Positions 5,943 to 29,922 of a stretch of 35,349 nt of DNA are shown in pieces. Below the pieces are notes generated by a model. The model was not told where the DNA came from. It saw only the letters and a list, made by a program, of their open reading frames with translations, and searched no databases. Position 1 is the first letter of the stretch; each line of letters opens with the position of its first letter. Source of the DNA: a bacterium (GTDB lineage Bacteria > Patescibacteriota > Microgenomatia > JAMCZE01); NCBI GenBank assembly GCA_021836035.1, contig JAKBJL010000006.1, positions 1-35,349 on the forward strand, given 5' to 3'. The translations under genes were made by a program, and so were the position numbers.

Positions 5943-6647
5943 ATGTCTTATTACTCCCGATTACAGCGCAGGTACGACCGAACCAGCCGAAGGCAGTCCT
6001 ATCTGCTTTTGGGAGCCACTCTGGCCCTGGTAATTTTAATTGTCTTTTTTGGGTTGCCGTTGGTTTTTAATCTTTCCACAATCATCAGCTCGTTCCGGCC
6101 CAAAGTAAAAGTTGCCGAAGACCGCGGTATCGCCCCTACCGCTCCGCGCTTTTCCCAAGAATATACCGCCACCAAATCGGCGCAAATAAAGCTTAACGGT
6201 GTCGCCGATCCGGGGATAACCGTAGAAATTTATCAGGATAACAACCTGCTGGGAACCACTCTTGCCGAGGATAACGGTAATTTCAGTTACGAGATAACTT
6301 TAAATACCGGCCAAAATTCTTTTGAGGCCCGGGCTATCTCTTCTAGCGGAGAAAAGAGCGACCGCTCTGAAATCTACACCATTAATTACAGCAACAAAGA
6401 TCCGAAATTAGATCTGGATAACCTTAAAGACGGGGATACGATCAAGGCAAATCCTTTTAATGTCCGGGGTAAAACAGATGCGGGCAACAGCGTTACCGTT
6501 AACGACCATCTGGCCATCGTCGGAGGCGACGGCTCTTTTTCTTACCTCCTCAATTTAAATAACGGCGATAACAAACTAAAAATTACCGCCGCTGACCCCG
6601 CCGGTAACCAAACCTCCAAGGAGCTGACCGTTAAATATTCTCCCTGA
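5943..6647 (+). CDS. Membrane-anchored protein with two Ig-like domains
   Basis: 234 residues. A basic N-terminus (about 1-20) and one transmembrane helix (about 22-45, LLLGATLALVILIVFFG) are followed by a linker and two bacterial Ig-like beta domains (about 70-150 and 152-234). Each has the pattern of short strands with G-D-G-x-F-S-Y or D-N-G-N-F-S-Y turns typical of bacterial 'Big'/glucodextranase-B-like modules that bind sugar or act as spacers. Predicted N-in, C-out surface protein; function otherwise unknown. The gene comes 30 bases after tRNA-Thr, has its own promoter and probably yields a leaderless mRNA. Its 3' end overlaps the convergent O-antigen ligase-like gene by 17 bases. Confidence 0.75.
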   Translation: MSYYSRLQRRYDRTSRRQSYLLLGATLALVILIVFFGLPLVFNLSTIISSFRPKVKVAEDRGIAPTAPRFSQEYTATKSAQIKLNGVADPGITVEIYQDNNLLGTTLAEDNGNFSYEITLNTGQNSFEARAISSSGEKSDRSEIYTINYSNKDPKLDLDNLKDGDTIKANPFNVRGKTDAGNSVTVNDHLAIVGGDGSFSYLLNLNNGDNKLKITAADPAGNQTSKELTVKYSP

Positions 6648-7788
6648 CAGCCAGCATCAGCCAGAGCCACTCCATAACCCAGGGATAAAAGAGCGTATTG
6701 TTAAACCAGCTGTGGATAAGGATTGCCAATAAACCGGCCGTAAAAATCAGATTATTTCTCCCCGTCAGCCACATCACCCGGAGCAGGTTAAGAAAACAAA
6801 TAAAACCGACTAGGCCGGTTGTTGCCAGAACCAATAAGAGAGAGGAATCCGCGCCCGCTCCCGCGTGGCTTACGGCTAATGACTGGCTAAGCTCGGGATT
6901 TAACTTTTCCCGGGTATAACGATAGGCATCAAAACCGACTCCCAAAACGGGGCTGATAGTCCAGATCCGCAGACTTTGCTGCCAGTTTTGTATCCGGGCA
7001 TAAATGCTGTTCTCGCGTGACAGACGGGTTCCTTCACCCGTGGACTGGGGTAGCAGGGGGATCGTTACGGCTATTACCAAAGCGGCGACCACCAGGATCT
7101 TCGGCGATCTTTTAAAGAAGGCTATAACGGCAAAAGCCGCCAGGTACATTAGGTATGAAGCCCGGGAATAGGTCAAAGCCAGTGCCATGTAGATAACCGC
7201 CATGATTGGCCAATAATAAAACCGGCCCGGATTTAAGACTCTCTGCCCCTGGAAAACCATTAGCAGTCCCAGGGCCAGGATCGCTCCGGTAAAACCGGGG
7301 TCAAGGAAAGTCCCGACAAGACGGTAATAATGATCATCCCAGCCCCATTGGGCTAAAAAGGAAACGTCGGGAATGAATACATATTGTAATAGGCCGAGTA
7401 TGGCGACAGCCAAGATCGCGATAGTAAACAATTTGAGCAAATAAATATTTTCCTCCCGGGAGCCGTCTTTAAAAACGAAATATAGTCCGGCATAGACAAA
7501 AAAGCGCAGCGGATAGAGTCCCGCAATTGCCAATTGCCGGATGGTTAAGTTCGGAAGGTTAACAAAAAGCGATAAAACTATCGCTACGGCAAAAACCAGT
7601 AAAGCCCGGAATAAAGGATGATAAAACCAATTTTTAATCAGCCGCCGCTTGGTTATTAATCCGGACAGAACTACCAGTCCCACCGCCAAATCGTTTAAAG
7701 GGAGGGCCACCTCATTTCCCGGGAGATTAATCCTTCCCAATTGTCCCAGGACAAAAATTGCCAAGAGGACGGTTAAATAAACCTTCAT
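6631..7788 (-). CDS. O-antigen ligase / Wzy polymerase-like membrane protein
   Basis: 385 residues with about ten hydrophobic segments. The pattern fits the O-antigen ligase/polymerase superfamily (WaaL/Wzy/TuaE): a TYSRASYLMYLA helix (about 208-219) and, near residue 283, a large outside loop beginning LGVGFDAYRYTREKLNPE, followed by the His-Ala-Gly segment AVSHAGAGADSSLLLVL. Such proteins attach or polymerise undecaprenyl-linked glycans on the outer face; donor and acceptor are unknown. ATG 7788 overlaps the upstream GT-C stop by 4 bases (ATGA), so it is translationally coupled and is the last gene of the 9980-6631 unit. It converges with the Ig-like gene with a 17-base overlap. Confidence 0.82.
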   Translation of the reverse strand: MKVYLTVLLAIFVLGQLGRINLPGNEVALPLNDLAVGLVVLSGLITKRRLIKNWFYHPLFRALLVFAVAIVLSLFVNLPNLTIRQLAIAGLYPLRFFVYAGLYFVFKDGSREENIYLLKLFTIAILAVAILGLLQYVFIPDVSFLAQWGWDDHYYRLVGTFLDPGFTGAILALGLLMVFQGQRVLNPGRFYYWPIMAVIYMALALTYSRASYLMYLAAFAVIAFFKRSPKILVVAALVIAVTIPLLPQSTGEGTRLSRENSIYARIQNWQQSLRIWTISPVLGVGFDAYRYTREKLNPELSQSLAVSHAGAGADSSLLLVLATTGLVGFICFLNLLRVMWLTGRNNLIFTAGLLAILIHSWFNNTLFYPWVMEWLWLMLAVRENI

Positions 7789-9173
7789 AAACGATATACT
7801 ATCAATTTTTGGCGGTTATCCCGATAAACTTCCTGCCACCGGTAACTCCGGTATAAAGTCTCCGTATTTTCACTCCAGGGGCCGTCCGGAACGATTAAAT
7901 AATCGACTTTCTCTCCCCGGTACCAAGATTCCTCAACGAAGGGAAAATCAAGATAATAAAGGTTATGCACGCCGGATACATAAGCCAGGTCGGTACTTTG
8001 AATATGGTCCGCAAACCACCCGGAACAATCGTAAAAAGTCCCCGGGAGCTTAGCTAAATTACGGCAAAGGTACGCTGTGCGCGTTTCCCGGCCCAAAATA
8101 ACCGGCAACAGGCGAAAAGTCGCGATTCCCCGGTAAAACAAATTAAGGACCGCGATAACCAGCGCACCCGCGAACAATAAGCGGCGCAGGAAACGGTCCG
8201 GAATATTTTTAATTACGAGGCCGCTTAGCAAAGCCCAGACCGGCAAATAGGGCAAAAGGAAACGGCCGCCCCCCGTGCGCGGAATTAGCCACCAAACCAA
8301 ATAAGCTAAAACGGAATAAATAATCAGGGGATAACTATTCTTCGGCATGTTTTTGCGAAATATGATTAAAAACGGCAAAAGCATCAGAAATAAAGGGCTG
8401 ATGGGGTCGGCGGACCCTATTGCCAGTTTGACAAAATCGGTTATTAAACCCGGAAATTGAAACACCAGACGATGGCTTTTATCCAGAATATCCGCTCCCA
8501 GGGGGTAAAAAGGATAGCCGGTATTTAAATAGGCGGATACAAACCAGGGAAGCGCGACTACGCCGGCGGTAACGGTAAGCAGCAATATTTTCTTCAGATC
8601 CCGATATACCATAAGGCCTAACAGTAATAATATTCCTGCGGTTCCGAGAGCCAGGGTTTTGCTGGCAATTGCCAGCCCCAAAGCTATCCCTGACCAGAAA
8701 ATTTTCCTGTTCAGCAAAAGATACAAGGCCAAGATTTCCCAAAAGGTTCTTTCTAAATCAATATAGGCGCTCCCCGAAAGCCAACCGACCAGGGGAGTCA
8801 CGTAAAAAATCAGCACTGCTAGCAGGCTGTAGGTTTCCTCAAGATATTTACGGGCCAATAAGTACAAAATCCCGGCGCTGCCCGCTCCCGCCGCCCACCC
8901 CAGAAGATGCGGACCGGTTTCCCGCCCCGCCGGGAAGAATTTTAATAAAAATAGAAAGATCATTTCCGTCAGGCGCGGCATCTCGCTGTAATAGAGCAAA
9001 CCCCCGGGGATATGATAAACAGCGCGGGCCGCGAGGTATAATTTAGGGATCGTCAAATGGTACCAGAGGGCGTCAAAACCCATTTCCGGACCAAAAGCAC
9101 TTAAAAGATTTACCGCCAAAGCAGCCGCCAGCAAAAAGAGCAATCCTACCTTAAGCAAATATTTCCCCGGCAT
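7785..9173 (-). CDS. GT-C glycosyltransferase, ArnT/PMT-like
   Basis: About 462 residues and roughly eleven hydrophobic helices, the GT-C fold of enzymes that use polyprenyl-phosphate sugars on the outer membrane face. The first outside loop has the acidic motif GPEMGFDALWYHLTIPKLYL, where Glu/Asp are the expected catalytic or metal residues; a GSAYIDLERTFWE loop and a soluble C-terminal domain follow. Sugar and acceptor are unknown. The frame opens at TTG 9215, but ATG 9173 is preferred because the 14 extra residues (MGRRCSARICSDAL) look non-native ahead of the first helix; there is no Shine-Dalgarno to decide. Second gene of the GT2/GT-C/ligase run. Confidence 0.8.
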   Translation of the reverse strand: MPGKYLLKVGLLFLLAAALAVNLLSAFGPEMGFDALWYHLTIPKLYLAARAVYHIPGGLLYYSEMPRLTEMIFLFLLKFFPAGRETGPHLLGWAAGAGSAGILYLLARKYLEETYSLLAVLIFYVTPLVGWLSGSAYIDLERTFWEILALYLLLNRKIFWSGIALGLAIASKTLALGTAGILLLLGLMVYRDLKKILLLTVTAGVVALPWFVSAYLNTGYPFYPLGADILDKSHRLVFQFPGLITDFVKLAIGSADPISPLFLMLLPFLIIFRKNMPKNSYPLIIYSVLAYLVWWLIPRTGGGRFLLPYLPVWALLSGLVIKNIPDRFLRRLLFAGALVIAVLNLFYRGIATFRLLPVILGRETRTAYLCRNLAKLPGTFYDCSGWFADHIQSTDLAYVSGVHNLYYLDFPFVEESWYRGEKVDYLIVPDGPWSENTETLYRSYRWQEVYRDNRQKLIVYRL

Positions 9174-9230
9174 AAGAGCATCAGAACATATCCGAGCAGA
9201 ACAGCGCCGACCCAAAATAGAGCGATTATC

Positions 9231-9980
9231 TTATAAATTCTGCTCATACATTTTTACCCTGACAACCAGGGACTGGAAGCTCATCAGCCAAGCCATGACT
9301 AAACCCGCTTCCCCGTCGAGAAGTCCCCTTTTTAAAAGGTAATTTTGAAGAAATTTTCCCAAAGGGTTTATCACCACCCGCCAGTAGCGAAAGCTTTTTC
9401 CCTCTTTCGCAAGTTCCCCGGCGTCAATCCCGCTGTAATAATTTACGCTATCCAGAAAATCCCTGACCGTTGGGTGGGGATAATGCATAAGAGGAGTTTT
9501 AAGCTCCCCCGTCTTTCCTTTAATATCCCAAAACTCGTGCACTTTCCGTCTCCAGAAACCGGCCTCTTTTCTACCCAGACGCAAAAGCTTAACCCGGCCG
9601 GTTTCGCCGTGGCGCAGCATCCGTTGCCGAAAACTATCACTCCTTTTTATAAAATATCCAACGCAGGGTGTACCGGCCAGTGTTTGTTGTATCTCCGCGG
9701 CCAATTCCGGGGTAACCTCCTCGTCAGCGTCCAAAAATAAAATCCAATCCCCCGCCGTTTTACTGAGAGCAAAATTGCGTTGGGCCGCAAAATCACCGTT
9801 TAACTTCCTGGTAAGCAAATGGCAATGGCGATTTTCCCTGCTGAAGCGGGAGACGAGAGCGGCCGTTTGATCTCCGGAACAATCATCAATTACCAGGATC
9901 TCCCCCGCCCAAATGACGGACCGCAGACAACGCTCAATATTTTTTTCCTCATTATGCGTTAAAATAGCCACTGTCAGCAT
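9231..9980 (-). CDS. GT2 glycosyltransferase (WaaE/KdtX-like)
   Basis: 249-residue GT-A-fold family 2 enzyme. Seen: N-terminal TVAILTHNEEKNIERCLRSV (nucleotide-binding start), VIDDCSGDQT (about 31-40), and the metal-binding LDADEEVT (about 83-90); after that comes an LPS-core-type region with KVHEFWDIKGKTG and MHYPH. Cytoplasmic or membrane-associated, it transfers a sugar from a nucleotide donor in glycan assembly. Its ATG at 9980 overlaps the start codon of the divergent GT-C gene (CATG, 9978-9981), so its promoter must lie inside that gene: TAAAAT at 9989-9994 ends 8 bases upstream. First gene of the 9980-6631 unit. Confidence 0.88.
   Translation of the reverse strand: MLTVAILTHNEEKNIERCLRSVIWAGEILVIDDCSGDQTAALVSRFSRENRHCHLLTRKLNGDFAAQRNFALSKTAGDWILFLDADEEVTPELAAEIQQTLAGTPCVGYFIKRSDSFRQRMLRHGETGRVKLLRLGRKEAGFWRRKVHEFWDIKGKTGELKTPLMHYPHPTVRDFLDSVNYYSGIDAGELAKEGKSFRYWRVVINPLGKFLQNYLLKRGLLDGEAGLVMAWLMSFQSLVVRVKMYEQNL
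9960..9965 (+). promoter_or_regulatory. Candidate -10 for the plus-strand GT-C gene
   Basis: TAAAAT 13 bases before ATG 9979, inside the 5' end of the opposite GT2 gene. No good -35 is visible. Confidence 0.35.
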
Positions 9981-11133
9981 GTGGTCCTATTTTATCTTAT
10001 TTCTTTACCTGGTAACACTTCCGCTGCTTTTTATTTTTTCCTATTCCCAGGCCGACCCGGGTTTTTACCTGCTTTCTAATCCCGCCTTTAAAATATTTCA
10101 GGACCGGATGGTTTACCTGGGAACACAGGAACGATACTTTTCCGGTAACCTCTTTTTCCTGATTTTGCTGCTGCTTTTCGCCGCTTATTTTCTCCTCTCT
10201 TACCGGCAATATCTAACCCCGAGACCGCTGCTCATTGCTCTTTTCGTCCTGATTATCGTTTTTGGCCTTATGACTTACCCGGCGTTTCTTTCGCACGATA
10301 TCTTCAGTTACCTGCTTTACGCCAAGATAACCGCTTTCTACCACAAAAACCCCTGGTTCGTACTACCCCGGGATTTCCCTTCCGATCCCCTGCTCCCCTA
10401 TAACCACTGGCCAACCAGCGCCAGCCGTTACGGACCAACCTGGATTGCTTTATCGAGCGCGCTTTATTATCTCGCCCGGGGGAATATTACCTTCCTGATG
10501 TTTCTTTTCAAATCCGCTCTGGCGGCCCTTTTCCTCGGTAACCTTTTCTTGCTGAAAAAGCTGGCCATAAACTTAAAAGTCAACTTCCGGCCGGTGCTGA
10601 TTTTTACCGCTTTTAACCCCTTTTTTATTATGGAGTCGATTGTCAGCCCGCATACCGATACGGTCATGACCTTTTTCGCTCTTTTGGCTTTCCTCCTGCT
10701 GCTGCGTAAACGTTACTTATTTTCCGGGTTCTCTTTCCTGCTTTCCCTCGGAGCAAAGATCGTTTCCCTGCCGCTGGGGCTAATATATCTCTTGCTTTAT
10801 TTCCTGCCACTTACGGCCAGGCAGCTGGCCTGGCTATTTTTAGGTTTAGGCTTTGGCGGTGCGGCGATCATTATAGCCCGCTGGTCAATTAACCCCTGGT
10901 ACCTTTTTTTGCCTCTTACCTTCGGCAGTCTTTTGATTAACTACCGTAGCGTTCGCTACCTTCTCTGGTCCTTATCGGCGGCAGCTTTGGTCAGATATCT
11001 GCCCTATTTTTATCTGGGCTATTTTGATCCGCACAATAAGATAAGACTGCTGCTCTTCTGTTTGCTCCTGGTTCCCTACGGAATCTGGCTTATTCGCCGA
11101 TGGCGTAGATATCGGTTTGGGGGAAAGATTTAA
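9979..11133 (+). CDS. GT-C mannosyltransferase-like membrane protein (MptB/MptA-like)
   Basis: 384 residues with about ten or more hydrophobic helices. The first large loop carries YPAFLSHDIFSYLLYAKI and then KNPW, which matches the S-x-D-I-F-S-Y motif of polyprenol-phosphomannose-dependent alpha-mannosyltransferases (MptA/MptB type); Asp in SHDIF is the expected catalytic base. It would add mannose or another polyprenyl-phosphate sugar on the outer face. ATG 9979 is chosen because it opens directly into the first helix; upstream codons would be antisense to the GT2 gene. It is the only plus-strand gene in 6631-17771 and its 3' end overlaps the convergent gene by 44 bases. Confidence 0.8.
   Translation: MWSYFILFLYLVTLPLLFIFSYSQADPGFYLLSNPAFKIFQDRMVYLGTQERYFSGNLFFLILLLLFAAYFLLSYRQYLTPRPLLIALFVLIIVFGLMTYPAFLSHDIFSYLLYAKITAFYHKNPWFVLPRDFPSDPLLPYNHWPTSASRYGPTWIALSSALYYLARGNITFLMFLFKSALAALFLGNLFLLKKLAINLKVNFRPVLIFTAFNPFFIMESIVSPHTDTVMTFFALLAFLLLLRKRYLFSGFSFLLSLGAKIVSLPLGLIYLLLYFLPLTARQLAWLFLGLGFGGAAIIIARWSINPWYLFLPLTFGSLLINYRSVRYLLWSLSAAALVRYLPYFYLGYFDPHNKIRLLLFCLLLVPYGIWLIRRWRRYRFGGKI
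9989..9994 (-). promoter_or_regulatory. Candidate -10 for the GT2 gene at 9980
   Basis: Minus-strand TAAAAT ending 8 bases before ATG 9980, inside the first codons of the divergent GT-C gene. The spacing fits the leaderless pattern; the -35 is weak. Confidence 0.4.
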
Positions 11134-12652
11134 TTAACTTCAGGGCCGGATACCTGCTGATTTTTGCTTCCCACGATACCGGAGCCAAAACCAATTTAAT
11201 CTTCTGGTCCTGCAAATATTGAATCGTCGCGGCGGAAGGAAAATTTGCCTGCAGCCAGCGGACCTTTACTTCCCACTCCTTTGGAGAAAAGCCGGAATAA
11301 CCGTTAAACATCGGCTGCCAATGAATGGTGGAGTAATATTCCCTCAGGGTTTCCCTTTCCAATTGGGAATCGTCCCAGCGGTAAATCGGGAATTGAATCA
11401 GGGGCAGGGTCGTTTTCAGCGTGCTCAACCAAACCTGCTCCGGCGGAAAAGAGGCGGGTTTGGGAACCGGGTAAAAAGAGAGCGGATACTTAATTTGGAA
11501 AAGCACTAAGAGAGAAAACAATAATAATATTTTCGGGCGGAGATGCTTGCGTAAGATCATTCCCGTTGCGACGCAAACCGCTAAAAAAGAGAGGATCAGC
11601 CAGCGGGAAGGTGTTCGAAAACCGGAAAATCCCGGCACCAGGTAATAAAAAAGAGCATAAGGCAGAGGCAGCGCCGGCAGGGGGCCGATATGAACCGTAT
11701 TTTTAAAAATATGCAGCGCCGGGCCCAACGCTAAAACAAAAGCCAAGAGGGCTAATATAAACCAGTAACTTATCTCCCTGGGTAAAATATCTATTTTTTT
11801 CGACTTCCTAAAAGTTGAGATTAGCATCGCCAGGGTCCCTAAAAAAAGCGTTATAAATACCCAACCGGGGAAAAATTGTCCGGCTAAATCCTGCGGGGCC
11901 AGGGAAAAATGGATAGCGTCTCTAATGGGGCGCACGTAATGGTATTGCCGGGAGACAAAAAAGTAGGGTAAAAGAAACGGGGCGGTAAACAGTCCCGCGA
12001 TTAGCGTAGACTTTATTATTGCCACACGTTCCTTTTTTTGCCAAAGAAACCACAACCCGGCGGTCAACAGTAAAAAATACAGAAAAAGGGCGGTGGTAAG
12101 GGAGGAGATCCCAAAAAAGAGGGCATAGAGAAAGTATCTTTTCCGCAGCAAAAAATATATCGCTAATATTACCGGCCAGAAATTAAGCAGTTGTAAATGC
12201 ACCAGATAAACAAAGCGGAACGGGGAAAAGGTAAAAAGCAAAGCGATAAAAAAAGCTAAATCCGCTTTTCCCGACAAATAACGTACCAGCAGAAAAACCG
12301 CCCATCCGGTGAGGATGAAACCGCCCAGGAGATTAAGATTATAAGCCAGCAGGGGTTCGTGAAATATCAAGACGGCAGGCATCGCCAAAATCGCTTCCGG
12401 AAGCATAAAATCCGAAAAGGCTAAGGTGCCTCCGGCCGGAAAAAAGATATTGGCGTTATAAAAATTCCTGAGTCCCTCCCCTCCGGAAGTTAAAGCATGA
12501 ATAACCCAGTTCAGATACCAGGTAATTAGCAAGCCGTCAACGCGGTCAACCACCAGGGTATCTAAATGCAGAATTAAAGGCCAGGTTATGACAATAGTGA
12601 TGGCCGTCATAACCGCCAGCACCCCGAGAGACGTTTTATCTGCTTTAATCAC
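11090..12652 (-). CDS. Uncharacterised GT-C-like multi-spanning membrane protein
   Basis: About 520 residues with some twelve hydrophobic segments. The first outside loop has LVVDRVDGLLITWYLNWVIH followed by NANIFFPAGGTLAFSD, a pattern I associate with a widespread, functionally uncharacterised GT-C-like family; the soluble C-terminal part contains YSTIHWQPMFNGYSGF. Probably an outer-face sugar transferase. GTG 12652 is preferred as start (8-base overlap with the preceding stop, coupled translation); the frame extends to 12742 but that part is a shadow of the upstream gene, and ATG 12610 is an alternative. Last gene of the DUF2130-led minus unit; its end overlaps the opposite GT-C gene by 44 bases. 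Confidence 0.72.
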   Translation of the reverse strand: MIKADKTSLGVLAVMTAITIVITWPLILHLDTLVVDRVDGLLITWYLNWVIHALTSGGEGLRNFYNANIFFPAGGTLAFSDFMLPEAILAMPAVLIFHEPLLAYNLNLLGGFILTGWAVFLLVRYLSGKADLAFFIALLFTFSPFRFVYLVHLQLLNFWPVILAIYFLLRKRYFLYALFFGISSLTTALFLYFLLLTAGLWFLWQKKERVAIIKSTLIAGLFTAPFLLPYFFVSRQYHYVRPIRDAIHFSLAPQDLAGQFFPGWVFITLFLGTLAMLISTFRKSKKIDILPREISYWFILALLAFVLALGPALHIFKNTVHIGPLPALPLPYALFYYLVPGFSGFRTPSRWLILSFLAVCVATGMILRKHLRPKILLLFSLLVLFQIKYPLSFYPVPKPASFPPEQVWLSTLKTTLPLIQFPIYRWDDSQLERETLREYYSTIHWQPMFNGYSGFSPKEWEVKVRWLQANFPSAATIQYLQDQKIKLVLAPVSWEAKISRYPALKLIKSFPQTDIYAIGE

Positions 12653-14132
12653 AATCAGAAACGCAATATATCCGGGCCCCGGCAAAATCCGCCACCAATC
12701 TTCCCCGGTCCCGGAAAAATCCGTAGCCTTTCTCCCTTTCACACAAAAAATATTTTACCCGGTACTCCCGGATAAAGCGGACGAAATTATCTTTGGATAA
12801 ATTATCGGGTACAAGAATCGCCGGCCGGTCAACAAAGATATTAAACTGCAGGGCGTTGGTGGTGGCAAAAATTGCTGACGGGGCAGTATGCTTGTCTATC
12901 CAACGGTAAACCTCCTGTTTCTCCAAACGATTCCAGATATCAATCTGCGGTTCGGTATTACGGGCCCAGAAGATTCTGTGTATATCCAAAACCAGATAAA
13001 CGCTCAGTGTCAGTACGCTAACCACCGAGGGTAGCGGCCAACGGGAAAACTCTTTTAAAAACTGCAATACCAGCGGCAAGAGCAGTAAATAAATAACTAT
13101 AAAATGCCTTTCGCGCTCAAAAATCGCCGCCCACAAGAGCGTGTACAAACCCAGGGTCAGGAAACTAAAAATCAGCAGCGGACTGAATTTTTGCCACCGG
13201 CGAAAACCATAGAGCACAAAAAATATTAAAGGGCCGAAATAACCGAAAGTCATAAAACTATTCAGGTGGTTTATGAGGTTAATGCCAAGCCTGCTGATAA
13301 TCCAAAGATAGTTTTGGCGGACAAATTCCGCGATCGCGGGGATAGGGCGCTCAAAACCTCCGCCCAGCGCTTCCTGAAGGGATCTTACCCGAAAATAGAT
13401 CTCGTTATAGGTAAATAAAGGATTCCCGTTGAGGCGGAAATTAAGATAAAAGAAGGGCAAAGCGGTTAGTAAAAATCCCAGAAACAGCAAGAACAGATAA
13501 CGAGGCTTTCGTTTTAAAGACCAGCCGAAAGCCGGCAATATAAATAGGCCTTCCAGGCGCGTAAGATAAGCAAGCCCCGCCAATATTCCCAGAATAAAAT
13601 ACTTGCCCGCTTGTTCCCGCATCCTGAAAAATACAACCATCGCTATAAGTACCCAGAATATTAACAGCGGTTCCGAAAGAATCAGGCGGCTGTTAACAAA
13701 CATATTGGGGTTAAAAGCCGCCAATAATCCGCCGAAGAAGGATAATTTTGCGGAAAAGAAAGAGCGGCAAAGAAGATAAACCAAACCGGCGTTTAAAGCA
13801 TTAAGCAATAAATAACCCAGTTGGAGAAAATAGGCATCGTTTTTAATGCGTAATAAAAAAGAGAGCGCGATCGCCGTCGCCACGGGACGGCCCTTTAAAG
13901 CCGAAGTAATCACCGGATCGGTTTGAAAGAGACGGAATTTTACGCTTTGGGTCAGCCCCCTCCCCAGGGCGAGATTCCGCGCCACATTCAGATACTCGCC
14001 GGTATCATCCGTACGCCAATACGGAGTGTGATACAACGGAAGACGGATCATTAAGGCCAGCAGGATAACTAATAACGGGAGAGGGAAACCCCTAGAGTTC
14101 CAATTGGTTAACGCTCTGCCAATCGTTTTCAT
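12645..14132 (-). CDS. GT39/ArnT-like GT-C glycosyltransferase
   Basis: 495 residues, about eleven helices. The hallmark first-loop motif WRTDDTGEYLNVARNLALG (about 38-56) is the D-D/E site of the PMT/ArnT family, and SRLILSEPLLIFW plus TRLEGLFILPAFG follow in the expected helices. It uses polyprenyl-phosphate sugars to modify lipids, proteins or glycans outside the membrane; the acceptor is unknown. ATG 14132 lies 41 bases inside the end of the beta-propeller gene; a TAAAAT at 14144-14149 could give it an additional promoter. It runs into the next GT-C gene with an 8-base overlap. Confidence 0.85.
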   Translation of the reverse strand: MKTIGRALTNWNSRGFPLPLLVILLALMIRLPLYHTPYWRTDDTGEYLNVARNLALGRGLTQSVKFRLFQTDPVITSALKGRPVATAIALSFLLRIKNDAYFLQLGYLLLNALNAGLVYLLCRSFFSAKLSFFGGLLAAFNPNMFVNSRLILSEPLLIFWVLIAMVVFFRMREQAGKYFILGILAGLAYLTRLEGLFILPAFGWSLKRKPRYLFLLFLGFLLTALPFFYLNFRLNGNPLFTYNEIYFRVRSLQEALGGGFERPIPAIAEFVRQNYLWIISRLGINLINHLNSFMTFGYFGPLIFFVLYGFRRWQKFSPLLIFSFLTLGLYTLLWAAIFERERHFIVIYLLLLPLVLQFLKEFSRWPLPSVVSVLTLSVYLVLDIHRIFWARNTEPQIDIWNRLEKQEVYRWIDKHTAPSAIFATTNALQFNIFVDRPAILVPDNLSKDNFVRFIREYRVKYFLCEREKGYGFFRDRGRLVADFAGARIYCVSDCD

Positions 14133-16110: not shown

Positions 16111-16123
16111 CGTCCCCCTTAAT

Positions 16124-17771: not shown

Positions 17772-17778
17772 GCTCTCC

Positions 17779-17807
17779 ATTAGAGCCTCTTTTTTAGGGA
17801 AAGTCAA
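17779..17807 (-). promoter_or_regulatory. Promoter of the DUF2130 operon
   Basis: Minus strand TTGACT (17802-17807), 17-base spacer, TCTAAT (17779-17784), then 7 bases to ATG 17771. It implies a leaderless mRNA and rules out starts at 17807 and 17780. Confidence 0.7.
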
Positions 17808-17888: not shown

Positions 17889-18188
17889 ATGTGTACCGCT
17901 GAAGATCCAAAACCCGACCAGCTTAATACCACCGCACACCGTTTTAACACCCTTTGTCATCGGGCTCCTGAACCGGTCAGGGAGTTGGTAATAAACGGAA
18001 GCTATGGACCGTCCCGGGAAGAAATTGACGAAACCCTGCATAACTTAAAACGCCTGAAACTTATCAGGATGGATGATAACGGCCATTGGAACATTGATAC
18101 TAACTCCTTAGCCGCACTGCCAAACCGCGCCGGGTCCAAAATACATAAGCGCCCTCTTTGGCAACCGGCTGATAGTTCTCTTCAATAA
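17889..18188 (+). CDS. Putative small winged-helix protein
   Basis: 99 residues from ATG 17889 (an in-frame TTG at 17868 is possible). The central part, EPVRELVINGSYGPSREEID followed by ETLHNLKRLKLIRMDDNGHW, looks like a helix-turn-helix ending in a beta-wing, as in MarR/ArsR-like DNA-binding proteins; this is pattern-based and the family is not recognised. The last 30 residues are read antisense to the end of the convergent GT-C gene (89-base overlap) and may be unstructured. It has its own promoter, divergent from the DUF2130 operon, so local regulation of the glycan genes is conceivable. It could also be a spurious frame. Confidence 0.5.
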   Translation: MCTAEDPKPDQLNTTAHRFNTLCHRAPEPVRELVINGSYGPSREEIDETLHNLKRLKLIRMDDNGHWNIDTNSLAALPNRAGSKIHKRPLWQPADSSLQ

Positions 18189-20964: not shown

Positions 20965-20970
20965 AGCCTT

Positions 20971-20976
20971 ATTGTA
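20971..20976 (-). promoter_or_regulatory. -10 box of the DPM1-like gene
   Basis: Minus-strand TACAAT ending 6 bases before ATG 20964, without a Shine-Dalgarno. The -35 is weak. Confidence 0.45.
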
Positions 20977-21069
20977 TTCTAACAGAATATTCCTGCTTGT
21001 CATCGGTTTACTTGCTTCATAATATCCTGCCTAAATATGCTAATATTAAAAACAAAAGAGAAGCTTGCT

Positions 21070-22092
21070 ATGAAGAATTTGGTGGTATTCGGCGGCGCGG
21101 GTTTTATAGGAACTAATATTTGCAAATTGGCTCTCAGTCGGGGCTACCGCGTTTACGCTTTCGACAGTCTCATGCGCCCCGGAGTAGAAGAAAACTTAGC
21201 TTTCCTTAAGCAATTAAAAGGTTTTCACTTTATTTGGGGCGATATCCGCAACAGCAGCGACTTTCAAAATCTGCCGGAAAAAATTGACGGCCTGATTAAC
21301 GTCGCGGCTAACCCTTCCATACCCAAAAGCTTTTTAAACCCCCGGCATGATTTTGAATGCAACGTCATCGGCCATCTGAATATCCTGGATTATGCGCGGG
21401 AACACGGCGGTATCCCCCTGATTTTTGCCTCTACAATGAAAGTTTATACTGATAGCATTAATCTGCTACCCCTAAAAGAAAATAAAACCCGCTTGCTTCT
21501 GAAAGAAAAAAAATACCGCTTTGGTTTTGATGAAAAAACGGATATCGACGGTGTTGACGGTTTTACTAATTCCCCTTACGGCGTTTCTAAATTCGCTGCC
21601 GATAAATATTCCCGGGAATATGCCAAACACTACGGAGTGCCGGTAGTAATTAACCGCATGAGCTGTATTTACGGACTTTACCAGAAGGGGGTTGCTGACC
21701 AGGGATGGCTGGACTGGTTCGTCCGCGCCAAGAAATACGGTTATCCCTTAACTATTTTCGGCAGCGGTAAACAGGTACGCGACTGCTTATTCGGTACGGA
21801 TCTGGCGGAACTTTACCTTTTGCAGATGGAAAAGATCAACCAATACTCGGGAAAAGTCTTTAACGTCGGGGGCGGTCCGGAAGAGGGATTTAATACCAGC
21901 CTTCTTGAAATTATCGCTCATTTAAATAAAAACTATCCGGGCCCGCAACTCAAATTAACTTTTGCCGACTGGCGCCCCAGCGACCAACGGGTTTATATCT
22001 CTGATATCCGTAAAGTCAAAAAGGCTACCGGTTGGAAACCCAAAACCGATATTGCTAAAGGGGTGCAGCAAATATGGCAAAGTCTGCCATAA
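21070..22092 (+). CDS. NAD-dependent nucleotide-sugar epimerase/dehydratase (CDP-paratose 2-epimerase-like)
   Basis: 340-residue extended short-chain dehydrogenase. Seen: NAD-binding FGGAGFIGTNICKLAL at the N-terminus, NVAANPSIPKS, the active-site SPYGVSKFAADKY (Tyr-x3-Lys), and NRMSCIYGLYQKGVADQGW followed by GKQVRDCLFGTDLAE. The Q-K-G-x-x-D-Q-G-W and Q-V-R-D motifs resemble CDP-tyvelose/CDP-paratose 2-epimerases (RfbE group), although the exact sugar nucleotide cannot be fixed. It would supply an activated sugar to the cluster. ATG 21070 is chosen because the 11 residues from ATG 21037 precede the conserved first strand; a weak AGAGAAG lies 9 bases upstream. First gene of the plus-strand unit with three GT-C genes. 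Confidence 0.88.
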   Translation: MKNLVVFGGAGFIGTNICKLALSRGYRVYAFDSLMRPGVEENLAFLKQLKGFHFIWGDIRNSSDFQNLPEKIDGLINVAANPSIPKSFLNPRHDFECNVIGHLNILDYAREHGGIPLIFASTMKVYTDSINLLPLKENKTRLLLKEKKYRFGFDEKTDIDGVDGFTNSPYGVSKFAADKYSREYAKHYGVPVVINRMSCIYGLYQKGVADQGWLDWFVRAKKYGYPLTIFGSGKQVRDCLFGTDLAELYLLQMEKINQYSGKVFNVGGGPEEGFNTSLLEIIAHLNKNYPGPQLKLTFADWRPSDQRVYISDIRKVKKATGWKPKTDIAKGVQQIWQSLP

Positions 22093-23456
22093 AAAAATAC
22101 TGGTGGATATTTATACCCCCGATATTCCACGTTTTAGCCAGTTTTAGCTTTACCTTTACCTATTGGCCGGAAATGCTCGATTGGCCCCGGGCCATGGCAC
22201 AAGGCTGGCTCCCCTATCGGGACTTTACGATGATTTATACCCCCCTGATCCCTCTCCTGATCATGCTCTCGGGCAAGATATTCGGCTTTACTCCCTTAAA
22301 TCTTCACCTCCTGGGAACATTTCTTCTTGCCTTAACCAACGCTCTTTTAGTCTTTGCCGCCTATCGCCTTACCCGGAATAAAATTATTAGCCTCCTCCTG
22401 GGGGGGTTATACCTTTATTTAACCCTGGCTTTCGAGGGCAATACTTTAGCTCCGGCTAATTTACTCACTCCCCTATTTTTCGGCATTTGCCTTCTACAGC
22501 TATCTTATCTGAAAAATAATAAGACCGTCTTGCTATTTTTATCCGGTATTCTAATGGGCTTGGCCTTTCTAACTAAACAAACCACCGCTTATGTTTTACC
22601 CGAATTTCCCCTCCTGCTTTCCTACCTTTATTTTAAAAGGCGTCGCGTTCGGCTAATTGCTCCGGCTTTTAAAGCCTTTGTTTTCCCTTTATTGCTGATC
22701 ATAACCTTTTTTCTGTTAATCCTTATCTCCTTAAACATCCTGGGCGATTTTTATAATTGGGGGGTAAAATTTAGCCTCTTATTGCCGACTTTGACCCAAA
22801 AGGCTAAGGTTTCGGATATATTATTCCCATCGTCCAGGCATATTCCGTTGCTTTTGGGATTCTGCTTTTTGGCCTTATCCGTTGTTATCCTGCGCAAGAA
22901 TTTTATCTCCTTTTTTCTATTTTCCTGGATAATTCTCATCAGCCTGTTTATTTTTCCCCGTTTTGCTTACGCCCATCTGTTACCGGCAATAGCTGTCTTT
23001 TTATTGTTGATCGCGGAAATCTATCCGCTCTCTAAAAAAAAGCCCCTTGCCCTCGCGGCCGCTTTTATTATTATCTTTCTGATGGCCTGGCCAATTTTTA
23101 AAAAAACCCGCCTGGAATCGCGGACCTACCTTGAACCCGATATTATCCTGATGGCCGATTATCTTAGCAAAACCTACCCTTCTTCCTCCTTGTATATTAT
23201 TAACAGTCCCGAACAAATCTATTTTCTTACCGATAAACTCCCGGCAGTAAAACCCTGGGTAGAGCAGCTTCCCTGGCAAATGGCTTATTTTAACCAGGAA
23301 TTTACCCTGGCGTTTAAAACCACCCCGCCCGATATCGTTCTCTATACCCCTTATAAAACAAACGAGTTTTCGCCCTCCCTCGTACCATATCTGAAGGAAA
23401 ATTATTCGCTTGTTCATTCCTTCCCCGGCGGCGAGCAGGTTTTAGAAAAACTCTGA
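22074..23456 (+). CDS. GT-C-like membrane glycosyltransferase
   Basis: 460 residues, about eleven helices. The first loop has YWPEMLDWPRAMAQGWLPYR and DFTMIYTP, the same layout as the protein at 18100-19584, so these two form a subfamily. The later FLTKQTTAYVLPEFPLLLSY helix is typical of GT-C proteins. The C-terminal soluble part contains SLYIINSPEQIYFLTDKLP. Predicted outer-face transferase using polyprenyl-linked sugar; specificity unknown. Its ATG overlaps the epimerase stop by 19 bases, so translation is probably coupled. Four bases separate it from the next GT-C gene. Confidence 0.78.
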   Translation: MAKSAIKKYWWIFIPPIFHVLASFSFTFTYWPEMLDWPRAMAQGWLPYRDFTMIYTPLIPLLIMLSGKIFGFTPLNLHLLGTFLLALTNALLVFAAYRLTRNKIISLLLGGLYLYLTLAFEGNTLAPANLLTPLFFGICLLQLSYLKNNKTVLLFLSGILMGLAFLTKQTTAYVLPEFPLLLSYLYFKRRRVRLIAPAFKAFVFPLLLIITFFLLILISLNILGDFYNWGVKFSLLLPTLTQKAKVSDILFPSSRHIPLLLGFCFLALSVVILRKNFISFFLFSWIILISLFIFPRFAYAHLLPAIAVFLLLIAEIYPLSKKKPLALAAAFIIIFLMAWPIFKKTRLESRTYLEPDIILMADYLSKTYPSSSLYIINSPEQIYFLTDKLPAVKPWVEQLPWQMAYFNQEFTLAFKTTPPDIVLYTPYKTNEFSPSLVPYLKENYSLVHSFPGGEQVLEKL

Positions 23457-23460
23457 ACCC

Positions 23461-24837
23461 ATGAGCAAAATCAGTAAAACACGCTTAAATTCACCCTCAA
23501 CCGGGGTATTTATTATTTTATTTTTAACCTTTGTTTTTTGGATTTTGCTGACCAAAGACAATTACTTTCATTGGGACGAATGGGGAATATTTTCCCAATT
23601 TAAAGAGGGCCCAACCTTTTATCTTCTCCATCCCCTGAATGAGCACTATATTCCTCTCAGCGCCACAATCCATTATTTCCTTTTTAGGTTTTTCGGTTTA
23701 AACTATCTTCCTTTCCAAATCGTTCTTATCAGCTTACACACTTTTAATTGTTATCTCCTTTACCGGATAGTATATCGCCAAACCGGGGATCACTTCCTCG
23801 CAACGATTGGCACTATTCTTTTCGCTATCGCCAGTACTGCAGCCGAGAACCTTGTTTGGTCGATCGGAATTAATATTACCCTGGCCGGGACCTTCGCCTT
23901 TTTGGCTTATTATTTTTTCCCCAAACACCCGTTCCTTTCCTGTCTTGCCCTTTTCTTTTCTCCCCTGTCCCACGATTTATCCCTTCTTTATCCTCTCCCC
24001 TTTGCCCTCATGGCTTACTTACGCAATAAAAACCCGCTGCCCTATCTAGCCGTTTCCCTGGTTAGTATCGCCACTCTTTTTTATTTCTCTCATGAAAATA
24101 TATATAGGAGTGTTTCTTCGCAGATAAGTTTTCTTTTGCCTAACGGTTTTGCTTTTATCACCGCAGGGGTGGTCAGGGGTGTCCTAATCAGGTTTTTTAT
24201 GCCCAACCTCAATTTCTTCCCGAATAGCGCCAGTCTGATCGGCTTATATTTCCGCCCGGTAATATTTGTAATACTCCTGATTTTCGCGCTCTTCTTCCTC
24301 TATCGAATTTGGCAATCGCCAAAGAAACAAAAATATTTCGCTCTTATCCTTTTTTACTTGCCACTGATAATAATTCCTTATATCGCCATTCTTCCCGCCA
24401 GAGTTGCCCAAGGAAGCGACCAGGCAAGTATAGCCAGGTATACCTATCTGCCCCTTTTCTTTCTCCTCGTATTTCTGGCCGACATTATTAAGCTGGCAAC
24501 CCTAAATAGAAAAATCATTTATGGTTTCTCTTTAGTTTTAATAGCGCTTCATCTAATATCCACGTTCAATTTTCAGACCCGCTATTGGGCTCCGATTGTT
24601 TCCCATGACAAATCGTTTTCCCGGGATATGGCTTATCTCTTCGCCAGTACGGATATTATTTATAATCCCAAATTGATTGGTATTAATGGGCAAATGCGAC
24701 CCTCCGATTTATGGTATTTTCATTTAGCTCAGAAAAAATATCTCTATACCGGTACGATTCCATCCCCGGTTACTGATATGCGTACAAAGGAGATATTTTA
24801 CCGCTTGGCCGGTGATTACCAAAAAAAATATGATTAA
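23461..24837 (+). CDS. GT-C-like membrane glycosyltransferase, paralogue A
   Basis: 458 residues with about ten helices. The first outside loop has NYFHWDEWGIFSQF, then NEHYIPLSATIHYFLFRFFG and LNYLPFQIV; Asp-Glu of HWDEW is the expected catalytic pair. The following gene has the same motifs in the same order (NYFHLDEW, GHFIPLLEIYYYLMIKIFG, LNYIPFQV), so the two arose by tandem duplication and have diverged. The donor is presumably polyprenyl-phosphate sugar. It starts 4 bases after the preceding stop; its stop overlaps the next start by 8 bases. Confidence 0.78.
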   Translation: MSKISKTRLNSPSTGVFIILFLTFVFWILLTKDNYFHWDEWGIFSQFKEGPTFYLLHPLNEHYIPLSATIHYFLFRFFGLNYLPFQIVLISLHTFNCYLLYRIVYRQTGDHFLATIGTILFAIASTAAENLVWSIGINITLAGTFAFLAYYFFPKHPFLSCLALFFSPLSHDLSLLYPLPFALMAYLRNKNPLPYLAVSLVSIATLFYFSHENIYRSVSSQISFLLPNGFAFITAGVVRGVLIRFFMPNLNFFPNSASLIGLYFRPVIFVILLIFALFFLYRIWQSPKKQKYFALILFYLPLIIIPYIAILPARVAQGSDQASIARYTYLPLFFLLVFLADIIKLATLNRKIIYGFSLVLIALHLISTFNFQTRYWAPIVSHDKSFSRDMAYLFASTDIIYNPKLIGINGQMRPSDLWYFHLAQKKYLYTGTIPSPVTDMRTKEIFYRLAGDYQKKYD

Positions 24838-26254
24838 TAAACTAAAGGCTTCAGTCGTTATTCCTAAAACTCCTTTTCTAATTTCCCTGGCCATTTTCTT
24901 ATTTTGGTTTTTTATCAGCCGCCATAATTATTTTCATTTAGACGAATGGAAATATTTTATGAGAATGAGTCTTCCTCCCGCACGGTTTCTGGCCATGTCC
25001 TATAACGGCCACTTTATTCCGCTCTTGGAAATTTATTATTACCTGATGATAAAAATATTCGGCTTAAACTATATTCCCTTTCAAGTAGCTACGGATCTCC
25101 TTCACGCCCTGAATTCCCTCATAATTTACCTGGTTGCTTCCCAATTAACCAAAAGGCGCGATTTGCCGTTGGCGGCGATGATTTTATTCGGTTTTTCCAG
25201 CGTCGGAGTTGAAGTGCCCGTCTGGTCTATAAATGTGGCCGCGGCGGCGATCGGAACGTTTACCTACGCGGCTTTTTATCTTCTGCTTAAAAATATCCCT
25301 AAGATCAACTTAAAAATAATTTCTATTTCTTGTCTCTTGTTGTTAATTCCTCCCCTTTGGTACGATCCCTCGATTCTGTCCGCGTTTGGATTTTGTTTCA
25401 TTACTCTTTTAGGGGGAAAAGGGAAAAAAAGATTTAGCGCCGCGGTTTTATACGCCGTTACGGGGTTTATCAGTGTCGCGGTGCTGTTACATTTCTCCAA
25501 TTATTTCGGAGTAAAAAACCCCTTAATAAATCCCGCCGGGTTTGCCCGCGATTATCTCGATTTTGTTTCCTCGGGTATAGTTTTTGGTTTAATTACCAGA
25601 TTTATTCTTCCTAACTTATACTTTTTTATCGGATCAAACAGTTTTTTCGGAGTTTGGGTAAGGCCGCTGCTGTTTTACGCGGGGCTATTGGCTATCCTTA
25701 TTTTCTTAATTAAAACGGCAAGAGCGGGAAAAATTAAAGAAATAATAAAAATTGCCCTACTCACCTGGCCGTTAATAATCCTCAATTATATGTCCATAGC
25801 CCTGGGGCGAACCAGCTTCGGGTCTTATTTTGCCCGTAACCCCCGCTACCCTTACTTTCCTTCATTCTTTCTGGTCCTTTTTATTATCCTTTTGTTAAAT
25901 ATTTTCCGGATAAAAAGAACCGTTGTTTATCTTCTGGTTGGTCTTTTCCTGGCCTTAAATCTTACTTCCGCCTGGAATTTTGAAAATAACTACATCCTTC
26001 CCGATATGCAAAAAGACAGAAAATTTATTAAAGAAGTAACCTATTTATTCACCCATAACCAGCGCGTCATCAACTACCAGGCTGATTTGTTTGACGTGAA
26101 GATACAATTATCCAGGCTCTGGTTTCTGCCCGACTACCAGAGGATTGTTTTCCTCGATCCCGCATCTAACCCTAAAGACGTAGAGGCCTTACTTTCTGCC
26201 TCGGATTACAATTCGCAACAAATATATTCCCGCATCGCGTATCCTCTTAAATGA
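24830..26254 (+). CDS. GT-C-like membrane glycosyltransferase, paralogue B
   Basis: 474 residues from ATG 24830, about ten helices; tandem paralogue of the preceding gene. NYFHLDEWKYFMRM holds the expected acidic catalytic pair, and GHFIPLLEIYYYLMIKIFG and EVPVWSINVAAAAIGTF match the neighbour. ATG 24830 (8-base overlap with the upstream stop) is preferred over ATG 24812, which would lie 26 bases inside the previous gene. Last gene of the plus-strand unit; it stops 16 bases before the convergent GT4 gene. Confidence 0.78.
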   Translation: MINKLKASVVIPKTPFLISLAIFLFWFFISRHNYFHLDEWKYFMRMSLPPARFLAMSYNGHFIPLLEIYYYLMIKIFGLNYIPFQVATDLLHALNSLIIYLVASQLTKRRDLPLAAMILFGFSSVGVEVPVWSINVAAAAIGTFTYAAFYLLLKNIPKINLKIISISCLLLLIPPLWYDPSILSAFGFCFITLLGGKGKKRFSAAVLYAVTGFISVAVLLHFSNYFGVKNPLINPAGFARDYLDFVSSGIVFGLITRFILPNLYFFIGSNSFFGVWVRPLLFYAGLLAILIFLIKTARAGKIKEIIKIALLTWPLIILNYMSIALGRTSFGSYFARNPRYPYFPSFFLVLFIILLLNIFRIKRTVVYLLVGLFLALNLTSAWNFENNYILPDMQKDRKFIKEVTYLFTHNQRVINYQADLFDVKIQLSRLWFLPDYQRIVFLDPASNPKDVEALLSASDYNSQQIYSRIAYPLK

Positions 26255-26270
26255 AATTCGATTAGTTAGC

Positions 26271-27392
26271 CTAAATTACCTCCTGATATATATGCTCTAG
26301 GTTAAGAGCATATTTCCGGCTGTCTAAATTTTTCCGGGCGTAAAGATTGGCTCTTTTTGAAAGCTTATCCCTAAGTGTTTTATCGGCTAATAATTTCTTT
26401 ATATTAGCCTCTAATAAATTAGCGTCTGCCACAATTCCCCTGTTTCCGACAACCTCTTTTACGGCCCCGTTATCCGCCGCTACTATGGGTAAGCCGCAGG
26501 CCATGGCTTCAACAAGTACCATCCCGTATTGCTCTTTCCACGTCCTGGAACCGATCACCGGGTGGACAAATATATCACAGATATTGTATAAGTTTGGCAT
26601 CTCTTCATAAGGAACCGCCCCCAGAATATATACCTTGTTTAAACGATTTTTTATCAGGTAAGTTTTTATCTCGTTTAAAAGCCCCCCCTCGCCCACAATA
26701 ACCAATTCTAAATCCTTATTTGCCGACCACAGGTTTTGATAGATTGATAGTAATTCCCTGATCCCTTTTTCCGGAACTAATCTGCCGGCAAAAAGCAACT
26801 TTATGCCCCGGTTTCTTCGCAGGGGTCCGTAATTGTTGATATTTCCGGGTTTAAATCTCCCTAAATCAACACCGGGATAAAGTACTACTATCTTATTTTC
26901 TGCGCATCCCTCCTTAATTAACGCCTGCTTGGCTCCTATTGTCGAAGCAATAAATTTATCAATATATTTAAAAGCTCTTCTCTTAAAATCCCTCCTTTGA
27001 TAAATTCCCTGGTTGCCAAAAGGAATGTTCTCCCACACCGTTGAAACGATTTTTTTGAGATAACCCTTTTCCTTGGCGTTAATACATTGTTGGGTATAGT
27101 AATAATATGTTTCTGCACAATGAGCTATATCAAATCCGTTTAATTTCTCCTCAAGCCCAAAAAGTACATGGGCATCCCCGTAGAGGCGGTTTAGCAGGGG
27201 CATTTTTAAAGGTTTTAACGGCCCAAAGGGCAAATCAACGGGCGAGGGTAATCTAACCACCGGAAAAGAAAACTCGCTGTGCAGCGGAAATAAAGAAGAA
27301 AAGGCCACCAGTTCATGTTTAGTTGCCAACGGTTCAAATAGTTGCCCTTCATATTTATTCAAAAATGCGCCCCTGATTAAAGCTATTTTCAT
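26271..27392 (-). CDS. GT4 family glycosyltransferase
   Basis: 373-residue GT-B-fold enzyme. The N-terminal half is an acceptor domain (KIALIRGAFLNKYEGQLFEP at the start). The C-terminal half has the family signatures KLLFAGRLVPEKGIRELL (about 195-212), LVIVGEGG and the E-x7-E motif EQYGMVLVEAMACGLPIVAA, which binds the nucleotide sugar. Retaining transferase acting at the cytoplasmic face on lipid-linked glycans; donor unknown. It lies 13 bases after the GT2 gene at 27406 and is co-transcribed with it. Its 3' end faces GT-C paralogue B with a 16-base gap. Confidence 0.9.
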   Translation of the reverse strand: MKIALIRGAFLNKYEGQLFEPLATKHELVAFSSLFPLHSEFSFPVVRLPSPVDLPFGPLKPLKMPLLNRLYGDAHVLFGLEEKLNGFDIAHCAETYYYYTQQCINAKEKGYLKKIVSTVWENIPFGNQGIYQRRDFKRRAFKYIDKFIASTIGAKQALIKEGCAENKIVVLYPGVDLGRFKPGNINNYGPLRRNRGIKLLFAGRLVPEKGIRELLSIYQNLWSANKDLELVIVGEGGLLNEIKTYLIKNRLNKVYILGAVPYEEMPNLYNICDIFVHPVIGSRTWKEQYGMVLVEAMACGLPIVAADNGAVKEVVGNRGIVADANLLEANIKKLLADKTLRDKLSKRANLYARKNLDSRKYALNLEHIYQEVI

Positions 27393-27405
27393 CTATTTTT
27401 AAAAT

Positions 27406-28170
27406 TTAACCGCTTTTCTCAAACACCTTAATCTTTTCAATAAGATTATAAATAGCATATAAAAAGCAAACAATAAATCCGGTAAATTTATCTAAAAATC
27501 CCAATTGTAACAGGTAAAGTTTTAAGAAACTCTTAAGGGGCGAAGCTATAATCTGTTTAACGCTGATCTGGGTATTCTTAGCCGCTATCTCGGAATCCAG
27601 CTCCGTATAGACATTTGTTTTTTTAAAAAATTCGGAAATATTTTTGTAATTAAAATGATCGTAGGAATTGATAAAAGAAGCAACCTTCCCGTCGACCGTA
27701 ATTTGCTGATGGAACCGGTAGGGATTGTAATGCCATTTGCCTTTTCTTACCATTCTTAATTCATGCGAGTGGGGTTTTACAAACCCGTGTTTAATCTGTT
27801 TTCCGAACATAAAAACCCTATTATAAAAGTTAAACCCGTTGATTTTTCCGTCGTCGTCTCCGTTTAAAAACTCTTGGATTTCATTTTGTAAATTAAGAGA
27901 TAATACTTCATCGGAATCCAGCTTTAAAAGCCAATCCGAGCGGGCTATCTTCATCCCCAGTTTTCTGTTCCGGTCAAAATTTCCGTCAGGGGGTATGTTT
28001 CTGTAAATTTTAGCCTGGTATTTCCTACAAATACTCAAAGTATTATCGGTAGAACCCATATCCACGATGATTATTTCGGTCGCCCACTTAATGCTTTCCA
28101 AACAGTTTTTGATTTTATCGGAACAATTATATGTCGGAACTATTACACTTATAGTTTTGGCTGCTGGCAT
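27406..28170 (-). CDS. GT2 glycosyltransferase (WaaE-like)
   Basis: 254-residue family 2 GT-A enzyme. Seen: SVIVPTYNCSDKIKNCLESI, IIIVDMGSTDNT, FDRNRKLGMKIARSDWLLKL and LDSDEVLS, where the metal motif is DSD rather than DAD. The order of motifs and a late HELRMVRKGKWHYNPYRFHQ region parallel the GT2 at 9231-9980 (both WaaE-like), so they are probably distant paralogues. Cytoplasmic sugar transfer from a nucleotide donor. ATG 28170 is preceded by TATAAT 13 bases upstream and no Shine-Dalgarno. First gene of a two-gene unit with the GT4. Confidence 0.88.
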   Translation of the reverse strand: MPAAKTISVIVPTYNCSDKIKNCLESIKWATEIIIVDMGSTDNTLSICRKYQAKIYRNIPPDGNFDRNRKLGMKIARSDWLLKLDSDEVLSLNLQNEIQEFLNGDDDGKINGFNFYNRVFMFGKQIKHGFVKPHSHELRMVRKGKWHYNPYRFHQQITVDGKVASFINSYDHFNYKNISEFFKKTNVYTELDSEIAAKNTQISVKQIIASPLKSFLKLYLLQLGFLDKFTGFIVCFLYAIYNLIEKIKVFEKSG

Positions 28171-29917: not shown

Positions 29918-29922
29918 AAACT

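Follow-up and report, generated by a model that had tools for sequence, protein, structure and literature searches.

A variable, GT-C-rich glycan cassette at a fixed chromosomal site in a Microgenomates-group Patescibacterium

How is a glycan started, exported and finished by a locus that is crowded with polytopic GT-C-type glycosyltransferases (GTs) and carries no export gene of its own? The question is raised by contig JAKBJL010000006.1 of assembly GCA_021836035.1, from a bacterium of the class Microgenomatia (Patescibacteriota). The window analysed here is that whole contig (C6, 35,349 bp), one of six contigs of a 1.06-Mb genome that is 97.9% complete, and the locus lies at positions 5943-28170. 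Profile searches detected no Wzx flippase, ATP-binding cassette (ABC) exporter or initiating phosphoglycosyltransferase (PGT) within it, in agreement with a first-pass annotation of the window. Judged by gene content and order, the locus is a variable cassette at a fixed site, between lepB-parB and an immunoglobulin (Ig)-domain protein gene/obgE, in Microgenomates-group Patescibacteria. It probably directs the assembly of a surface glycan, with Wzx acting in trans, the Wzy_C protein joining the glycan, and the GT-Cs decorating it outside the membrane with polyprenyl-phosphate sugars.

The position of the cassette is common to many families of the class. In the synteny survey, the lepB side was examined through parB positions in other families and through loci of named genomes. 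Both lepB and the Ig gene were present in 21 loci, the window included, and a Wzy_C gene was found in 19 of these 21, the cassettes of G027 and G029 being those in which it was not detected. A gene of the type named GT2a occurs in most of the 21 loci and matches strongly (E < 1e-60) in the majority of complete cassettes. In syntenic cassettes, the Wzy_C gene has the Ig gene as its constant neighbour, tail to tail. By this comparison, GT2 plus Wzy_C is the constant part of the cassette, and the Wzx or GT-C genes are what varies. The features of the window locus, with the evidence for each, are as follows.

5943..6647, plus strand: Ig-domain, extracytoplasmic protein with a single transmembrane (TM) segment (Pfam Glucodextran_B/Big_6; 14-member alignment; synteny)
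6631..7788, minus strand: Wzy_C protein of the O-antigen ligase/polymerase type, cassette core (PF04932, E 8.8e-16)
7785..9215, minus strand: GTC1, a GT-C (PMT_2, E 0.0056, below cut-off; alignment A4; hhalign 95.4% to the GT-C profile)
9231..9980, minus strand: GT2a, cytosolic glycosyltransferase, cassette core (PF00535, E 1.1e-23)
9913..11133, plus strand: GTC2, a weakly MptA-like GT-C (TIGR03459, E 2.6e-7, far below the equivalog cut-off)
11090..12742, minus strand: GTC3, a GT-C with no Pfam match of its own (hhalign 98.2%; 16-member alignment)
12645..14132, minus strand: GTC4, a PMT/PMT_2 GT-C (PF13231, 29.3 bits, and PF02366, 24.3 bits, both above cut-off)
14092..16110, minus strand: beta-propeller protein, passenger (PF09826, E 2.8e-110)
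16124..16633, minus strand: DUF192 protein, passenger (PF02643, E 2.2e-29)
16617..17807, minus strand: DUF2130 protein, passenger (PF09903, E 9e-59; synteny)
18100..19584, minus strand: GTC5, a GT-C (PMT_2, E 3.6e-4, below cut-off; hhalign 93.4%)
19571..20221, minus strand: class I S-adenosylmethionine-dependent methyltransferase (PF08241, E 1.6e-10)
20248..21003, minus strand: DPM1-like GT2, candidate polyprenyl-phosphate sugar synthase, no TM domain (PDB 5mlz, E 3.2e-20)
21037..22092, plus strand: nucleoside diphosphate-sugar epimerase, closest to CDP-tyvelose 2-epimerase (9rl0, E 3.5e-65; 1orr, E 8.8e-63)
22074..23456, plus strand: GTC6, a PMT_2 GT-C (PF13231, 42.1 bits)
23461..24837, plus strand: GTC7, a GT-C, paralogue of GTC8 (A3 alignment with invariant first-loop Asp; profile match to ArnT)
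24812..26254, plus strand: GTC8, a GT-C, 32% identical to GTC7 (A3 alignment; profile match to ArnT)
26271..27392, minus strand: GT4 glycosyltransferase, recurrent cassette member (PF00534, E 2.9e-33)
27406..28170, minus strand: GT2c glycosyltransferase (PF00535, E 5.7e-19)
28552..29103, plus strand: lepB, signal peptidase I, conserved boundary, followed by parB (PF10502; synteny)

The first-pass annotation had described a GT-C-rich interval; its gene calls, lengths and order match those found here, and its count of seven GT-C proteins has to be raised to eight. The single Wzy_C protein, three GT2 enzymes, one GT4 enzyme, epimerase and methyltransferase that it listed were all recovered by Pfam. 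The true start of GTC2 is probably the ATG near 9979, in which case most of the overlap with GT2a disappears. Three genes in 14092-17807 (beta-propeller, DUF192 and DUF2130) have no known glycan function. The beta-propeller gene is, as far as seen, a passenger outside the glycan pathway, and the DUF2130 homologue of G003 sits between the Ig gene and obgE.

The closest view of the cassette is offered by G002, a genome of the same family, which keeps the order obgE, Ig, Wzy_C, GTC1, GT2a, GTC3, GT2, GT4, GT2c, lepB, parB, with 44-58% identity to the window for the shared glycan proteins (57% for the GT2c orthologue). Its cassette has GT-Cs (GTC1 and GTC3) and no Wzx. The same interval of G003 holds the Ig gene, Wzy_C, GT2a, GT4, a Wzx and further GTs, and no GT-C. 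GTC1 or a homologue lies between GT2a and Wzy_C in the window, G002, G013, G026 and G034, and GT4 homologues are found in the cassettes of G002, G003, G009, G017, G024, G034 and, partial, G020. In G026 the Wzy_C gene is split into two overlapping frames (L142:6266-7377), which may reflect a pseudogene or an assembly error. Wzx genes lie inside the cassettes of relatives and were confirmed by Pfam in G003 and in a Levyibacteriota genome. Wzx and GT-C genes occur together in G034 and G038, and neither was detected in G012, G017 and G037; since several GT-C-free cassettes thus also have no Wzx, the local absence of Wzx says little. Among the complete cassettes, a replacement of Wzx by GT-C appeared as no more than a trend (Fisher p 0.14; table filled by hand from the survey plus G002 and G003); as this is not significant, we do not claim that GT-Cs have replaced Wzx. 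Among loci long enough to judge, G010 and four Pacebacteria-like records do not show the cassette arrangement next to parB. On the right flank of the window (28552-35349), lepB, parB, rpmA, a THUMP-methyltransferase gene, rplU, rodA and ileS follow in an order that is largely conserved in relatives of the family and class; ileS is truncated by the contig end.

The interval is predicted to encode eight polytopic GT-C-like proteins, with 7-12 TM segments by hydropathy. GTC4 and GTC6 score above the Pfam PMT_2 cut-off and GTC1 and GTC5 below it, and a Pfam GT-C match of their own is missing for GTC3, GTC7 and GTC8. In alignment A3, which joins the GTC7/GTC8 family from this and other genomes of the class, 8 of the 17 members match PMT_2, invariance is confined to the first-loop Asp and one Pro, and the family profile finds ArnT (5EZM) at E 2.7e-5. 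When compared with this GT-C profile by hhalign, GTC3 (16-member family), GTC1 (5-member family) and GTC5 (single sequence) gave 98.2%, 95.4% and 93.4%, respectively, and the similarly hydrophobic controls Wzy_C and Wzx gave 4.8% and 0.1%. GTC2 did not match the PMT-type GT-C profile (hhalign 4.2%), and its assignment rests on its MptA similarity. The five-member GTC1 family (A4) has an invariant FDALWYHL motif; in the 16-member GTC3 family (A6), a D is near-invariant, and GTC3 carries the first-loop motif DxxDGLLITW. The GT-C nature proposed in the first-pass annotation therefore holds against the refuting outcomes named there: the first-loop Asp is conserved in the alignable families, those undetected by Pfam match PMT/ArnT-type proteins by profile, and the Wzx and Wzy controls are negative.

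GTC3 relatives were found in 20 of 137 class genomes, with no confirmed relative in a scan of named genomes and none in the phage records searched. GTC8 has no close relative among the 58 other class genomes searched. Within its own genome, GTC2 has a paralogue at C1:138259-139284, and GTC6 has a close one at C4:80188 (E 9e-78). Weak matches of the C-terminal part of GTC1 to lectins (E 0.012 and above) were taken as chance.

The only PDB sequence matched by the Wzy_C family profile is 7TPG (E 4.9e-4), a polysaccharide polymerase/ligase, and the alignment extends through the loop region. A loop Arg is conserved in the family, and the ligase-type (SHAG) His is present in 11 of 13 members, the window protein included. 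The DPM1-like GT2 (20248-21003) can be aligned over almost its whole length with the catalytic region of the dolichol monophosphate mannose synthase 5mlz and is thus a candidate polyprenyl-phosphate sugar synthase that could make donors for the GT-Cs. Because it adjoins GT-C genes, the proposal of the first-pass annotation that the GT-Cs use polyprenyl-phosphate donors gains support. Its caution that the polymer is not predictable was also justified: the epimerase resembles CDP-tyvelose 2-epimerase, yet of the upstream enzymes of that pathway that were sought, neither CDP-glucose 4,6-dehydratase nor glucose-1-phosphate cytidylyltransferase exceeded the curated cut-off in the genome, and tyvelose was not retained as a product.

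Initiation and export genes beyond the interval, for which a check of the flanks had been proposed, are absent from the rest of the window and present on contigs C1 and C4. The genome contains one PGT (PF02397, at C1:30174), three Wzx-type proteins (C1:48953, C1:117373 and C4:162928) and a Wzm/Wzt-type ABC pair of an ABC-2 permease and a Wzt-type ATPase (C1:73016-75096). The only PGT, two of the Wzx-type proteins, the ABC exporter pair and most GT-Cs of the genome belong to a nearly unbroken glycan-gene run of about 113 kb (C1:30000-143500; L050-L056). The sole GtrA domain found is fused to a DPM1-like GT2 in another cluster (C1:141647-142819; L056:1647-2819), so that synthase and candidate flippase may be united in one protein. 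LpxC (PF03331) gave no match in this genome (98% complete), which makes lipid A unlikely as the acceptor. These presences and absences, like the gene identities and the synteny, are read directly from the sequence. The same island contains an open reading frame of 1048 aa (C1:35096-38242; L050:15096-18242) that combines a Wzy_C domain (233-453) with a PMT_2 GT-C domain (637-785), possibly a ligase/GT-C fusion; PMT_2-matching frames of about that length occur in G001 and G155.

Taken together, the findings lead us to favour the following sequence of events, of which we infer the order of the steps, the coupling of the cassette to the C1 and C4 genes, and a likely acceptor other than lipid A. 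The single PGT would start a glycan linked to lipid pyrophosphate, which the GT2 and GT4 enzymes of the cassette would extend in the cytoplasm. Flipping would be carried out by a Wzx encoded on C1 or C4, and the Wzy_C protein of the cassette would polymerise the glycan or transfer it to a surface acceptor that is not lipid A. The eight GT-Cs would then attach further sugars outside the membrane, in the manner of three-component systems (PMC11127046). The polyprenyl-phosphate sugars needed would come from the DPM1-like GT2 (20248) and similar synthases encoded on C1, and would be flipped by the GtrA domain (C1:141674) or by an unknown carrier.

Several observations weigh against this scheme. 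No direct evidence ties the window enzymes to the PGT and Wzx of C1 and C4, which are surrounded by dozens of further GT genes, possibly their exclusive users, and the single GtrA found belongs to another cluster. From the Wzy_C sequence, a ligase is not distinguishable from a polymerase or a protein O-oligosaccharyltransferase, and an STT3 match was not seen among the window proteins by Pfam, STT3/PglB (PF02516) not having been searched genome-wide. The AlphaFold models of GTC3 alone and of GTC7 with GTC8 have a mean predicted local distance difference test score (pLDDT) of 40-43, too poor for judging GT-C folds. Finally, contig C5 (43 kb; L070, L102) reads N over both of its 6-kb ends and could hide relevant genes.

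The first-pass annotation had reasoned differently: with no Wzx, ABC exporter or PGT in sight, most sugars would be added outside the membrane, each linkage by its own GT-C and with polyprenyl-phosphate sugars as donors, much as arabinogalactan is assembled. Such a flippase-independent polymer is in keeping with eight GT-Cs and a DPM1-like synthase in a cassette that has neither Wzx nor PGT, and the G002 cassette likewise combines GT-Cs with the lack of Wzx. However, the argument from missing export genes fails because a PGT, three Wzx-type proteins and an ABC exporter exist in the same genome, and relatives carry Wzx in syntenic cassettes. Wzx and GT-C genes are not cleanly exchanged for one another either (G012, G017 and G037 have neither, G034 and G038 both; Fisher p 0.14), and the cassette retains GT2 and GT4 enzymes that normally act in the cytoplasm. 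The likeness to arabinogalactan systems is reduced to the sub-cut-off MptA similarity, since no Emb/Aft domains were detected by Pfam among the window proteins, a genome-wide search for them not having been made. We regard this explanation as improbable.

It is somewhat easier to imagine, though still unlikely, that the locus serves protein O-glycosylation, with Wzy_C as a PglL/TfpO-like oligosaccharyltransferase and the constant Ig-domain protein or a pilin as acceptor. The ligase-type His/Arg pattern of Wzy_C, the failure to find LpxC, with lipid A an unlikely acceptor, and the tail-to-tail position of the Ig gene would fit this, but genes so arranged are not co-transcribed, the Ig gene also occurs in the two cassettes without Wzy_C (G027 and G029), and there is no sequon or acceptor evidence. 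Alternatively, the GT-Cs could be mostly unrelated, strain-specific decorations in a recombination-prone slot, sharing no pathway with the core. The isolated GTC8, the tandem paralogy of GTC7 and GTC8, the three non-glycan passengers and a drop in GC content to about 0.40-0.42 over 22.5-28.5 kb all agree with such a view; the recurrence of GTC1 in the same slot in five genomes (this one, G002, G013, G026 and G034) and the syntenic GTC3 of G002 speak against it, and we give it little credence. A bolder, rather doubtful proposal is that of a dedicated, class-wide Patescibacterial surface-glycosylation locus with a GT2-Wzy_C core, the Ig neighbour as partner or acceptor, and Wzx- and GT-C-based modules swapped between lineages. 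If it were true, the outer glycan would vary by lineage, which would give variable surface coats to very small, probably host-dependent cells.

The abundance of GT-Cs is a trait of the class and is not peculiar to the window locus, since one or more PMT_2 matches occur in 231 of the 232 genomes sampled from the class. There are 29 such matches in the 1.06 Mb of this genome, 22 of them on C1 and 4 in the window. First-look candidate counts, which allow a rough ranking only because the scored counts had a ceiling of 15, gave a class median of 24 and 37 for this genome, with 23 genomes higher. GC content is about 0.45-0.48 across most of the locus outside the 22.5-28.5 kb stretch, and the lower values there hint at a different origin of the half with GTC6-8, GT4 and GT2c. 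No readable end of another contig joins the ends of the window contig. Near its left end, on the minus strand of 2538-3537, two overlapping frames, 3211-3537 (hydrophobic N-terminus) and 2538-3455 (Cys-rich repeats), appear to be pieces of a single secreted Cys-rich protein broken by a frameshift.

No description of the lepB-to-Ig cassette was found in the literature searched. The papers that were found devote one sentence each to the cell-coat question, mentioning without detail 29 glycosyltransferases for a Microgenomates genome (PMC7143001) and 20 for a Parcubacterium (PMC5220378). The genomes of Patescibacteria are small, yet much coding capacity goes to glycan assembly here, and a locus that stays in place and keeps its GT2-Wzy_C core offers a concrete, testable handle on the cell coat.

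Among known systems, three-component Gtr-type extracytoplasmic glycosylation consists of a synthase, a flippase and a GT-C (PMC11127046). The window resembles it in having a DPM1/GtrB-like synthase beside GT-C genes and a GtrA domain in the genome, and differs from it in having eight GT-Cs, one synthase candidate and no GtrA in the cassette. The weak MptA/MptB similarity of GTC2 recalls the lipomannan/arabinogalactan assembly of actinobacteria (MptA/MptB, Emb, Aft), whereas Emb/Aft domains are missing from the window and the MptA match is far below the equivalog cut-off. The PMT_2 matches, the detection of ArnT 5EZM by profile and the first-loop Asp link the GT-Cs to ArnT/PMT enzymes, although the window proteins are divergent and several of the eight have no Pfam PMT match. 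Wzy_C is like WaaL-type O-antigen ligase (7TPG/7TPJ), the only PDB match of its family profile, but as LpxC was not detected, the natural WaaL acceptor is probably missing. The enterobacterial galF-gnd region exemplifies a further known kind, the Wzx/Wzy-dependent loci for O-antigen or capsule that keep to one chromosomal position. Unlike such loci, the window cassette has no Wzx or PGT and has eight GT-Cs, in a genome with no detected LpxC; like them, it has fixed flanks, variable GT content, Wzy_C and GT2/GT4 enzymes, and the cassettes of its relatives carry Wzx. Overall, the locus represents no new type of machine but a variant of surface-glycan loci already known.

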